From Candidatus Microgenomates bacterium (GTDB taxonomy: Bacteria > Patescibacteriota > Microgenomatia > UBA1406 > GWC2-37-13), in the NCBI GenBank assembly GCA_023245215.1, contig JAHFKS010000002.1, positions 1-60,568 of the forward strand: a stretch of DNA of 60,568 nucleotides, written 5' to 3'. The notes beneath the pieces are model-generated. The model was given only the letters and a program-made list of their open reading frames with translations, ran no database searches and was not told the origin of the DNA. Positions 28,933 through 31,480 of this stretch are shown here, piece after piece; the first letter of the stretch is position 1, and each line of letters begins with the position of its first letter. A program made the translations under genes and the position numbers.

Positions 28933-28956
28933 AGTTTTATTATACAAATTTATAAT

Positions 28957-29976
28957 TTACTTTAAAGCCTCTTTCAAATCATTAATCAATAGATCTGGAT
29001 CTTCAACGCCAATAGACAAACGGAAAAAATTATCGTCAATCTTTGAGGACAGAACCATCATTGACCCTGGATGTAAAATAGTTGACTCCACTCCTCCAAA
29101 ACTTTGAGCAATTTTTATACTTTTAAGCCTTTTTAAAAACATTTTTGCTGTATTTTTTCCGCCAATTGTAAAAGAGATTATTCCCGAAACACCGGGAAAG
29201 TTTGTTTTCTTTATTTTTTTATGATTTTTTAAAAAATTAAATATTTTGAAAGCGCTATCCGTTTGTTTCTTCATTCTTATGTCCAAAGTTTTTATACCAC
29301 GACTAACTAGATGACAATCAAAAGGCGAAAGAACCCACCCCAAAGTTTGCTGATTAAATTTCAACCTTTCAAATAAATCAATATTATTTGTCATGATTGA
29401 GCCTCCCAATACATCGTGGTGCCCGGAAATGAACTTAGTCAAACTATGGACAACTAAATCAGCTTCTTCAAGTAAAGGTTTTTGAAAAATCGGCGTACAA
29501 ATCGTGTTATCTACCGCGACTAGGATATTATTTTTTTTAGCTAACTCGGTGATATTTTTGACATTGATAACATCAAGATTAGGATTAGTTATGTTTTCAA
29601 AAAAAATCATCTTCGTTGACGGTCTGATTTTATTTTTGACTTCGTCTATTTTTTTTAAATCAATCAAATCAAACTCCAAACCAAATTTTTTCAAAATTTT
29701 ATCCAATATTCTGCGTGTCCCCTCATATATCTCACGATGGCACAAAATATGATCGCCTGCTTTGAGAAGCATAAACAGACATGCAATTGCCGAAGAACCA
29801 GAAGAAAAAGCCAACGCATGATTGGCCTTTTCAAGATCAGCTAATTCCCTTTCCAAAGCCAGCCGGGTCGGGTCGTCGACCCGGCTGTAGCCCCATTGAC
29901 TCGGAACATCTTGGGAGAAAGTTGTTGATAAAACAACCGGGCTATTTATCGGTTTTATATTTTTTTTAACTTTCAT
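28957..29976 (-). CDS. Cys/Met-metabolism PLP enzyme (cystathionine gamma-synthase/lyase family)
   Basis: 339 residues; family members are usually 380-400, so it is compact. STTFSQDVPSQWGYSR at the N-terminus, the PLP phosphate loop FSSGSSAI, the aspartate in ILVAVDNTICTP, the Schiff-base lysine in VVHSLTKFISGHHDVLGG, and FGGVESTILHPG near the end define the trans-sulfuration family. The reaction (gamma-synthase, gamma-lyase or methionine-gamma-lyase) cannot be told. No other methionine pathway gene is in the window. It sits between a methyltransferase-like gene (13-nt gap) and tyrS (24-nt gap). Confidence 0.85.
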   Translation of the reverse strand: MKVKKNIKPINSPVVLSTTFSQDVPSQWGYSRVDDPTRLALERELADLEKANHALAFSSGSSAIACLFMLLKAGDHILCHREIYEGTRRILDKILKKFGLEFDLIDLKKIDEVKNKIRPSTKMIFFENITNPNLDVINVKNITELAKKNNILVAVDNTICTPIFQKPLLEEADLVVHSLTKFISGHHDVLGGSIMTNNIDLFERLKFNQQTLGWVLSPFDCHLVSRGIKTLDIRMKKQTDSAFKIFNFLKNHKKIKKTNFPGVSGIISFTIGGKNTAKMFLKRLKSIKIAQSFGGVESTILHPGSMMVLSSKIDDNFFRLSIGVEDPDLLINDLKEALK

Positions 29977-29989
29977 AATAATTATGAAT

Positions 29990-30895
29990 TTATAACTTTT
30001 TCCTGAGGACTACATTGTGTCTTTCACATTCAAGAGGTGGAATATGGCTGTCCTTTCCCCGTCGACTGGCTATTTCTACTATTTCAAACCCATCCTCCTC
30101 CCAAGTCCTCTTATGATCTTCAAGTGTCCTGAACCATTCTCCATGACCTTGTTCATCCTCTCCGAAAACTACAAAACTTCGATTCGACTCTATCTCCATT
30201 ATGAGTCCTCTCAATGATTCCGCATTAATTTCCGGAAAAGCCTCACCTAGCTCTTTTAAATCATAGATATTATTTTTCAGCGCTTCTAATATGTCTTCCC
30301 CTAAACTCGCCCTTAAGTCATTAAAATTGATAACTTCTCTTGACTGAGACTCTATTAAAAAATCGCTCGTAGTAATATTGACGATTGATGTCCCACCCGT
30401 CTTGAGGATTCTCGAAGCCTCGGCGTCAATCTGCCTATCTATAGTCGGCGGACAACAGTTGCCGATATGATCCCGAAGATTAAAATCTTGGGACGACGTT
30501 TCAAGACCGGTAGTCCGAGCATCCCTCAAAAAACATTGGACGTCATCCAATCCTGATGCTTCAATATCGGCAAAAATTCCGTCGCTCAGGTCAACAGCAG
30601 TGGTAGAGATTTTTCCACCTCCTAATCCTTTTAAAAGTCTTTGGAAATCTCTAGGTCCTTCCGCTATAGAGATACCAAGCACTGCTACCGATAAATCACA
30701 ACCATTAATTTCATTGCCCAATCTTTGAACTGAATTCATTCTTGCCAAATGGGCTATATTGACGCCAACTGTCGGCGTTCTGTTTTCCACTTCTTCACTC
30801 AAACCAAGTTTTTCAAAAAGGTTTTGGGTATCAATGTAACGATTCGCATCTCTAAACTGATGACCATCGCTGAAACCTTTAATTTTATTTTCCAT
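29990..30895 (-). CDS. SAM-dependent methyltransferase-like protein
   Basis: About 301 residues from ATG 30895 (MENKIKGFSDGHQFRD); the upstream extension of the frame runs through a terminator and is rejected. The Rossmann pattern is visible: a VAVLGISIAEGPRDFQ strand-loop (degenerate glycine motif), an acidic strand end TTAVDLSDGIF, CFLRDAR, an FDxIxxxxx-like PPTIDRQIDAEASRILKTGG and a final VNITTSDF. The substrate is unknown. The acidic C-terminal region GEDEQGHGEWFRTLEDHKR is unusual. It is the first structural gene after leader peptide B. Confidence 0.55.
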   Translation of the reverse strand: MENKIKGFSDGHQFRDANRYIDTQNLFEKLGLSEEVENRTPTVGVNIAHLARMNSVQRLGNEINGCDLSVAVLGISIAEGPRDFQRLLKGLGGGKISTTAVDLSDGIFADIEASGLDDVQCFLRDARTTGLETSSQDFNLRDHIGNCCPPTIDRQIDAEASRILKTGGTSIVNITTSDFLIESQSREVINFNDLRASLGEDILEALKNNIYDLKELGEAFPEINAESLRGLIMEIESNRSFVVFGEDEQGHGEWFRTLEDHKRTWEEDGFEIVEIASRRGKDSHIPPLECERHNVVLRKKL

Positions 30896-30917: not shown

Positions 30918-30942
30918 TAAAAAACCCCGCTTTTGGCGGGGT
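30918..30942 (-). terminator. Attenuator terminator B upstream of the methyltransferase-PLP-tyrS operon
   Basis: Minus-strand hairpin CCCCGC-CAAAA-GCGGGG followed by TTTTTTATT, 17 nt after the leader B stop codon. Its 5' arm CCCCGCC (30941-30935) is perfectly complementary over 7 bp to GGCGGGG inside leader B (30983-30977). Confidence 0.85.
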
Positions 30943-30959: not shown

Positions 30960-31043
30960 TTAGGCAATAAACGGCTCCCCGCCGTAAAGCAGTTCGTAGT
31001 AGTAATAACTTGTTTGTCTTATCCAAAAATTTTTGTTTTCCAT
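30960..31043 (-). CDS. Leader peptide B, Tyr-rich
   Basis: A 27-codon frame starting at ATG 31043, 4 nt after the stop of the 83-aa gene and preceded by an AGAGGA ribosome binding site. The peptide begins MENKNFWIRQ and continues TSYYYYELLYGGEPFIA. Five of 27 codons are Tyr, four of them consecutive (codons 13-16). Codons 21-23 (GGC GGG GAG) carry the GGCGGGG antiterminator strand, 12 nt beyond the Tyr run. A terminator follows the stop. Ribosome stalling at the Tyr codons would leave GGCGGGG free to pair with the terminator arm and permit read-through towards tyrS. That mechanism is inferred from sequence alone. Confidence 0.7.
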   Translation of the reverse strand: MENKNFWIRQTSYYYYELLYGGEPFIA

Positions 31044-31047
31044 ATAT

Positions 31048-31299
31048 TTATCCTCTCATTCCTCTTAATCTTTCCTCCCTAGCTATAATTTTCGTCCGTT
31101 TGGCTTCATCGAGCTGGCCGGGTACTCTATCCATTAGAGCCTCTATTTCATTTATCCTTAACCGTCTGATATTTCTTAACTTCCAGCCTATTATGTCTCC
31201 ACCTGACAATTTTGGCACTAAAACTTGTTTCGGTGACAGACTGGCCAAAGCCGTCTGGTAAATTTCGCCTTGAGTTCTTTTTCCTTTTGTTTCTACCAT
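31048..31299 (-). CDS. Small hypothetical protein between the two attenuators
   Basis: 83 residues, starting MVETKGKRTQGEIYQTALASL. The middle (LSPKQVLVPKLSGGDIIGWKLRNIRRLRINEIEALMDRVP) looks like a compact helical, possibly nucleic-acid-binding domain, and the C-terminus is strongly basic (KRTKIIAREERLRGMRG). I do not recognise the family. A GGAGGTGA site gives a confident ATG at 31299. It is expressed only if terminator A is passed, so it shares aromatic-amino-acid-linked control with the genes below, and it may be a regulator of them (inference). Confidence 0.6.
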   Translation of the reverse strand: MVETKGKRTQGEIYQTALASLSPKQVLVPKLSGGDIIGWKLRNIRRLRINEIEALMDRVPGQLDEAKRTKIIAREERLRGMRG

Positions 31300-31320
31300 A
31301 TAAAATCACCTCCAAGCCAT

Positions 31321-31345
31321 TAAAAAACCCCGCATCTGCGGGGTT
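31321..31345 (-). terminator. Attenuator terminator A
   Basis: Minus-strand AACCCCGC-AGAT-GCGGGGTT followed by a T run. The 5' arm CCCCGC (31343-31338) is complementary to GCGGGG (31389-31384) in leader A. An alternative small hairpin CCGC/GCGG (31398-31395 with 31389-31386) would sequester the same strand, giving a 1:2, 2:3, 3:4 set of competing pairings. Confidence 0.85.
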
Positions 31346-31366
31346 GATGTAATTTATATTTACTTT

Positions 31367-31441
31367 TCAGCAATCACATTCACCCCCGCCTAAAGCGGAG
31401 TAAAAGTAAAAATAAAAGTTTTTGTTGCTCAAATTTTTCAT
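31367..31441 (-). CDS. Leader peptide A, Phe/Tyr-rich
   Basis: A 24-codon frame from ATG 31441. The peptide begins MKNLSNKNF and continues YFYFYSALGGGECDC. Codons 9-14 alternate TTT/TAT/TTT/TAC/TTT/TAC. The next two codons (TCC GCT) contain region 1 (CCGC) and codons 18-20 (GGC GGG GGT) contain region 2. The frame starts 11 nt after a TATAAT, so the message is leaderless. Peptides A and B share the NKNF start and the aromatic run ending in GGE. The arrangement is that of amino-acid biosynthesis attenuators such as trp and phe leaders. Confidence 0.7.
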   Translation of the reverse strand: MKNLSNKNFYFYFYSALGGGECDC

Positions 31442-31452
31442 AAGTAATAATT

Positions 31453-31480
31453 ATTATACATCTGAAATTTTTTATTGCAA
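31453..31480 (-). promoter_or_regulatory. Promoter of the attenuated tyrS operon
   Basis: Minus strand TTGCAA (31480-31475), a 16-nt spacer and TATAAT (31458-31453). It is back to back with the promoter of the 31526 gene. Confidence 0.65.

Follow-up and report, generated by a model that had tools for sequence, protein, structure and literature searches.

Ribosome-mediated attenuation is textbook knowledge as a mechanism class, and T-box leaders are known to sense the charging of aminoacyl-tRNAs. CPR bacteria have reduced genomes and limited biosynthesis, and to our knowledge their adjustment to amino-acid supply is largely unknown. Among the described systems closest to the locus reported here is the Phe leader (pheA/pheST type, RF01859), in which an intrinsic terminator and an aromatic leader peptide go with 1:2, 2:3 and 3:4 pairings that exclude one another. 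According to the available part of a comparative study (PMC1262725), leader-peptide attenuators of Actinobacteria combine amino-acid leaders with competing hairpins outside Proteobacteria. In Salmonella, tandem attenuators with two successive short leader ORFs control one operon, mgtCBR, as given in the accessible text of PMC3641672.

We analyzed a window (the whole stretch of DNA, 60,568 nt) from a genome of Candidatus Roizmanbacteria (Microgenomates, CPR). Sequence comparison makes it highly likely that two modules on its minus strand, A and B, are trp/phe-type ribosome-mediated transcription attenuators in series. Element A shares with the Phe leader the three features named above, but it alternates Phe and Tyr codons, starts translation 11 nt past the -10 box, is followed by a second candidate attenuator and belongs to a TyrRS-containing operon of a CPR bacterium. 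Module B follows the same logic as the Trp operon leader (RF00513), from which it differs by its Tyr run, the lack of a separate promoter and a conserved flanking peptide. The T-box (RF00230) senses tRNA charging, as proposed for A, and a T-box-like leader precedes a tRNA-Tyr-aminotransferase-TyrRS operon in one relative (G016); unlike A, the T-box binds tRNA directly, without a leader peptide. The actinobacterial attenuators belong to another phylum, and no serial arrangement was seen in the available part of that study. The mgtCBR operon, as far as its report is accessible, serves Mg2+ transport and virulence and has both short ORFs in a single leader region, whereas modules A and B each have their own GC-rich intrinsic terminator. 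The initial annotation had known of no attenuator of this kind in CPR bacteria, and we found none described for CPR/Patescibacteria in the open literature searched. What appears to be new is the group of hosts, the leaderless layout in series and the breadth of use, the mechanism class being already known.

On the minus strand the locus runs from the promoter through leader A and terminator A, the 83-aa ORF, leader B and terminator B to the 301-aa protein, the PLP enzyme of the Cys/Met family and TyrRS:

31441-31322, minus strand: element A, whole
31048-31299, minus strand: 83-aa ORF between attenuators A and B, product uncharacterised
31043-30919, minus strand: module B, whole (leader B and terminator B), downstream of A
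29990-30895, minus strand: 301-aa protein, uncharacterised, the nearest gene past terminator B
28957-29976, minus strand: PLP enzyme, Cys/Met metabolism family (PF01053; E 3e-102)
28939-28944, minus strand: TATAAT, putative promoter of TyrRS itself, 6 nt 5' of the TyrRS start codon
27838-28932, minus strand: tyrosyl-tRNA synthetase, TyrRS (NF006330; 367.7 bits against a cut-off of 220)

The upstream neighbour of A is divergent, and no minus-strand gene ends ahead of A. Pfam and NCBIfam searches gave no match for the 83-aa ORF, whose sole homologue among 72 genomes (in G025) is also flanked by A and B; family searches gave none for the 301-aa protein. A TATAAT box or near match was found 5-14 nt 5' of the TyrRS start codon at all 31 TyrRS loci, and TyrRS thus has a probable promoter of its own. 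Since TyrRS carries this conserved -10 box, the attenuators would mainly control the genes between them and TyrRS, and a simple reading of the locus as a TyrRS attenuator is weakened. The short distance from box to start codon at TyrRS genes suggests that mRNAs of these CPR bacteria are commonly leaderless. As a separate observation, the TyrRS of the window is similar to homologues from Woesearchaeota and Nanoarchaeota genomes, and this likeness possibly reflects exchange with DPANN archaea.

Element A has the following parts:

31453-31480, minus strand: promoter, TTGCAA (31480-31475), 16-nt spacer, TATAAT (31458-31453)
31441, minus strand: start codon ATG of leader A, 11 nt past the -10 box
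31367-31441, minus strand: leader peptide A, 24 codons, MKNLSNKNFYFYFYSALGGGECDC, stop at 31369-31367
31400-31417, minus strand: regulatory codons 9-14, F Y F Y F Y
31398-31395, minus strand: region 1, CCGC
31390-31383, minus strand: region 2, GGCGGGGG
31377-31390, minus strand: region 2 with extension GGCGGGGGTGAATG, the 5' arm of the antiterminator
31384-31400, minus strand: 1:2 hairpin of region 1 around CCGC with region 2, -10.2 kcal/mol
31338-31350, minus strand: region 3 with extension ACATCAACCCCGC, common to antiterminator and terminator
31322-31343, minus strand: terminator A, 3:4 hairpin CCCCGC-AGAT-GCGGGG and T6, -14.8 kcal/mol

The initial annotation had proposed the promoter, the 11 nt to the ATG and the 24-codon ORF, all of which were present base for base; the alternation of Phe and Tyr in codons 9-14 was seen at 31417-31400, and CCGC, region 2 and the terminator with its T run lay on the minus strand where it had placed them. 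Folding also reproduced the competing pairings it described, except that the 2:3 antiterminator, in which GCGGGGgTGaATGT is paired to ACATcaACCCCGC, is longer than it had drawn. Its view of A as an attenuator was supported, although A does not stand alone and is the first of two candidate attenuators in series, the second (B) lying at 31043-30919. Computed energies in A were -21.3 kcal/mol for 2:3, -14.8 for 3:4 and -10.2 for 1:2. The leader folded with a z of -4.05 relative to shuffles, and a correctly placed leader ORF containing six or more consecutive F/Y codons occurred in 4 of 5000 dinucleotide shuffles. The best Rfam match of A was the Phe leader RF01859 (37.4 bits, E 1.3e-4; the gathering threshold of 55 was not reached), and Trp_leader RF00513 gave 22.4 bits, under its 41-bit gathering threshold. 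Because the start codon lies only 11 nt past the -10 box, the mRNA of leader A would be leaderless or almost so.

Module B has the following parts:

30960-31043, minus strand: leader peptide B, MENKNFWIRQTSYYYYELLYGGEPFIA, beginning a few nt past the stop of the 83-aa ORF
30996-31007, minus strand: regulatory codons 13-16, four Tyr
30977-30983, minus strand: region 2, GGCGGGG, also part of a CGGC-GGGGA-GCCG hairpin
30919-30942, minus strand: terminator B, ACCCCGCCAAAAGCGGGGT and T run, -13.3 kcal/mol

No promoter box was found ahead of the start of leader B. Its YYYY run was matched in 1 of 5000 shuffles, and its best leader match in Rfam was the Trp leader RF00513 at 26.3 bits, short of the 41-bit gathering threshold. 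The 2:3 pairing of B was computed at -17.7 kcal/mol and the local CGGC-GGGGA-GCCG hairpin at -7.9 kcal/mol. With region 4 included, the terminator is slightly stabler than the antiterminator, so that the outcome at B must be set by kinetics.

Both modules thus have a short leader ORF with an aromatic run (FYFYFY or YYYY) that is retained in relatives, and an intrinsic terminator and a mutually exclusive antiterminator with region 3 in common. The leader stop would let a terminating ribosome mask region 2, with the regulatory codons just upstream. In the proposed mechanism, a single transcript would begin immediately ahead of leader A and carry both attenuators. With Tyr-tRNA (at A, Phe-tRNA as well) amply charged, the ribosome would reach the leader stop codon and cover region 2, hairpin 3:4 would form and transcription would end. 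When charging is low, the ribosome would stall at the aromatic codons, leaving region 2 free to pair with region 3, and once this antiterminator had formed RNA polymerase would read through. Polymerase would have to pass A and then B, with its Tyr run, on its way to the genes of the 301-aa protein and PLP enzyme, and TyrRS would receive the read-through in addition to the output of its own promoter. The sequence, pairings, conservation, covariation and association with aromatic genes form the observed part of this model; from them we infer where transcription starts, its termination and how it responds to Tyr/Phe limitation or to the charging of tRNA.

To follow the modules in relatives, we compared three leader types: A (..NFYFYF..GG..), B (..RQTSYYYYxLLYGG..) and C (..AKYYYLQP). 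Homologues of A were found in G015, G016 (two copies), G017, G020, G025 and G068, and their occurrence is patchy: out of 20 genomes from the genus, 6 have A-type modules; leaders related to B were found in 9 further genomes. Two more TyrRS loci outside the close group have leaders MKIKASKNFFFYFYPVLRGAPFL and MVKKHNFKNYYYYYLPY, the latter immediately 5' of TyrRS. The initial annotation had suggested that relatives be compared for the aromatic codons, the GGCGGGG segment and covariation. All such modules near TyrRS homologues retain the aromatic run alongside the terminator, a region-2 complement to the terminator arm is detectable in nearly all of them, and covariation of the antiterminator pairing is seen beyond the search core. 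Variable loops put the terminator stems out of place when A and B were aligned with MAFFT, and pairs were instead counted on anchored elements. Every first-position leader (A or C, 12/12) has TATAAT or a one-off box 6-12 nt 5' of the ATG, whereas TATAAT precedes none of ten B leaders and a 5-of-6 box precedes one; because first leaders have -10 boxes and nine of the ten second leaders do not, A and B would act serially on one transcript.

The window operon contains TyrRS, and aromatic-pathway, tRNA-Tyr and DAHP synthase genes lie behind the leaders of relatives. In G068, A and B are followed by DAHP synthase, chorismate mutase, prephenate dehydrogenase, an aminotransferase and TyrRS, as read from the sequences. 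DAHP synthase follows A/B-type leaders in G017, tRNA-Tyr(GTA), an aminotransferase and TyrRS follow the leaders in G015, and a tyrosine phenol-lyase/tryptophanase relative does so in G016 and G048. The genes behind A and B vary from genome to genome yet seem to remain within Tyr/Phe metabolism or tRNA-Tyr charging. Taken with the covariation of the antiterminator, the comparison of relatives and these predicted aromatic genes support the trp- or phe-type attenuation proposed at the outset.

Some properties of B would be compatible with a further component. In the nine B leaders, a small sample, residues beside the Tyr run are kept as amino acids despite codon change (pN/pS 0.04 for LLY and 0.36 for R/K-Q-x-S, same small sample). 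Codon starvation alone fails to predict this conservation, so that a nascent-peptide component is possible in B. An arrest peptide in B, and perhaps A, whose amino-acid sequence itself would halt the ribosome and, like TnaC, possibly sense a free metabolite, would fit these residues, and some targets are indeed tryptophanase- or tyrosine phenol-lyase-like. We consider it rather unlikely, however: a ribosome stalled at the stop codon, as with TnaC, would here cover region 2 and promote termination, A- and C-type leaders conserve little peptide besides the aromatic run, and the LLY codons may pair in the RNA. It is very unlikely that the leaders act chiefly on translation or mRNA stability, for example with leader B and the 83-aa ORF coupled. 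The start of B does lie a few nt past the stop of that ORF, a typical coupling distance, but both modules keep intact T-run terminators with competing antiterminators, and the structures leave the start codon of the next gene unsequestered.

We further searched 72 family genomes for attenuators of this design with a pattern made of the cores of regions 2, 3 and 4 (the A/B core). The source genome (0.82 Mb) had four matches, A and B among them, and the reversed pattern had none; at least 58 of the 72 genomes were matched, with the reversed control almost without matches. Two more candidate attenuators in the source genome are a Trp-codon leader before trpB2, downstream of a TrpR-like gene (L077, G000:C36:5771), and a leader with F and H codons ahead of an aromatic ammonia-lyase (L074, G000:C11:4527). 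Among the matches listed, 80 of 85 terminator-tailed ones had a leader ORF that starts with ATG and ends at region 2 (19.8 expected from shuffles), and runs of at least three specific residues occurred in 35% of the terminator-tailed matches listed, compared with 1.7% in shuffles. The stops of all 80 leaders surveyed fell at -6 to +24 nt relative to the region-2 core, within a search window of -12 to +45 nt. Antiterminator pairing extended 2.3 bp past the fixed core in the 80 loci, compared with 1.69 in re-paired controls (maximum of 500 shuffles, 2.06), and the antiterminator was stabler (-17.9 against -15.8 kcal/mol). The GCGGG core was fixed, which makes its positions uninformative for covariation, misses attenuators with other stems and renders all counts lower bounds. 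About half of all family leaders have a -10-like box 6-12 nt 5' of the ATG and Shine-Dalgarno-like sites were seen at 4 of 80; because the boxes lie close to the ATG and such sites are rare, most of these leaders look leaderless.

The residue run of a leader matched the gene behind it:

HHH leaders: HisRS; CntK-like protein
W leader: TrpB, source genome included
FYFYFY leader: DAHP synthase; archaeal-type ADH synthase
YY.Y leader: prephenate dehydrogenase
CC..C..C leader: cysteine synthase (CysK)
SSS leader: SerB
LLL leader: isopropylmalate/homocitrate synthase-like (IPMS)
IVLVIIV leader: branched-chain aminotransferase (BCAT)
TTT leader: ThrRS
MMM leader: SAM hydrolase

With residues assigned post hoc from enzyme names and unblinded, none of 20,000 permutations agreed as well as the observed pairs; with one locus per gene class and the same unblinded assignment, none of 40,000 did. 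The CntK-like proteins, which resemble the histidine racemase (NF033599, E 2e-19, below cut-off), follow HHH leaders at three loci (L094, L096 and L232). Large proteins with weak or no family match lie behind Phe- or Ile/Val/Leu-run leaders at nine loci (L082, L084, L085, L188, L196, L259, L262, L265 and L245), hinting at unrecognised amino-acid-linked pathways in Roizmanbacteria. Leaders of this kind also lie ahead of genes with a likely catabolic role (aromatic ammonia-lyase, tryptophanase-like and histidine decarboxylase-like); there, starvation-driven induction is not obviously useful, and starvation logic leaves these leaders unexplained.

Across the phylum, a stricter pattern matched 21 of 380 genomes and its control none, a lower bound given the fixed stem. 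Other families had His leaders before HisRS, Trp leaders before TrpB, Thr runs before ThrRS and a Lys-rich leader before aspartokinase, with gene names read from the sequences. In one other CPR family (L285, G309), a leader MKYTTRTNNNNNNPA with six Asn codons has the same terminator architecture.

The least credible reading, extremely unlikely and rejected for this window on the rarity of the type, the leader features and the excess over shuffles, takes A and B for plain intrinsic terminators of unrelated short transcripts, with ORFs and complementarity arising incidentally in an AT-rich genome whose GC-rich terminator stems are stereotyped: hairpins of this type do recur within the family and the 5' arm of any such stem pairs with any nearby GGCGGG, but the divergent upstream neighbour leaves no minus-strand gene to terminate ahead of A, just four such terminators exist in the genome, three with leader and antiterminator and the fourth leader-like too, ORFs and residue runs lie far above shuffles, leaders agree with genes, and covariation reaches beyond the core.

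The T-box model RF00230 had no match within the window or elsewhere in the source genome, and a T-box reading of the window was rejected on this ground. In G016, a T-box-like leader and not A lies ahead of the tRNA-Tyr-aminotransferase-TyrRS operon (57.7 bits, E 4e-12, against a 93-bit threshold), and sub-threshold T-box matches occupy the same position in G017 and G022. Because a T-box-like leader substitutes for A at the tRNA-Tyr operon, the view that A reads Tyr-tRNA charging is supported. Separately, sub-threshold T-box-like leaders were seen in 36 of the 72 family genomes (for example L038, 3902-4133), one of them ahead of tRNA-Tyr. No paper linking T-box riboswitches and Patescibacteria was found in the open literature searched.

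Returning to attenuation, a wider proposal is that Microgenomates have a regulon of standardised attenuators (at least His, Trp, Tyr/Phe, Thr, Ser, Cys, Met and branched-chain) that would be leaderless, stackable, mobile between operons and interchangeable with T-boxes, with B acting also as a sequence-specific arrest peptide; we regard it as plausible though somewhat short of probable. The exchange of A for a T-box at one tRNA-Tyr operon makes the replacement of one tRNA-charging sensor by another directly testable.

The residue run of a leader provides a tool for predicting the amino acid behind unannotated genes, as illustrated by the His runs at the CntK-like protein, the Met run at SAM hydrolase and the Phe or Ile/Val/Leu runs at several unmatched families. 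Judged from sequence, the source bacterium appears to sense shortage of Tyr and Phe by ribosome stalling at short peptide genes, two in succession, and its relatives appear to apply the same RNA design to His, Trp, Thr, Cys and other amino-acid genes. The conserved attenuator suggests coupling of translation with transcription in CPR bacteria, together with the use of intrinsic terminators and a means of sensing whether tRNAs are charged.
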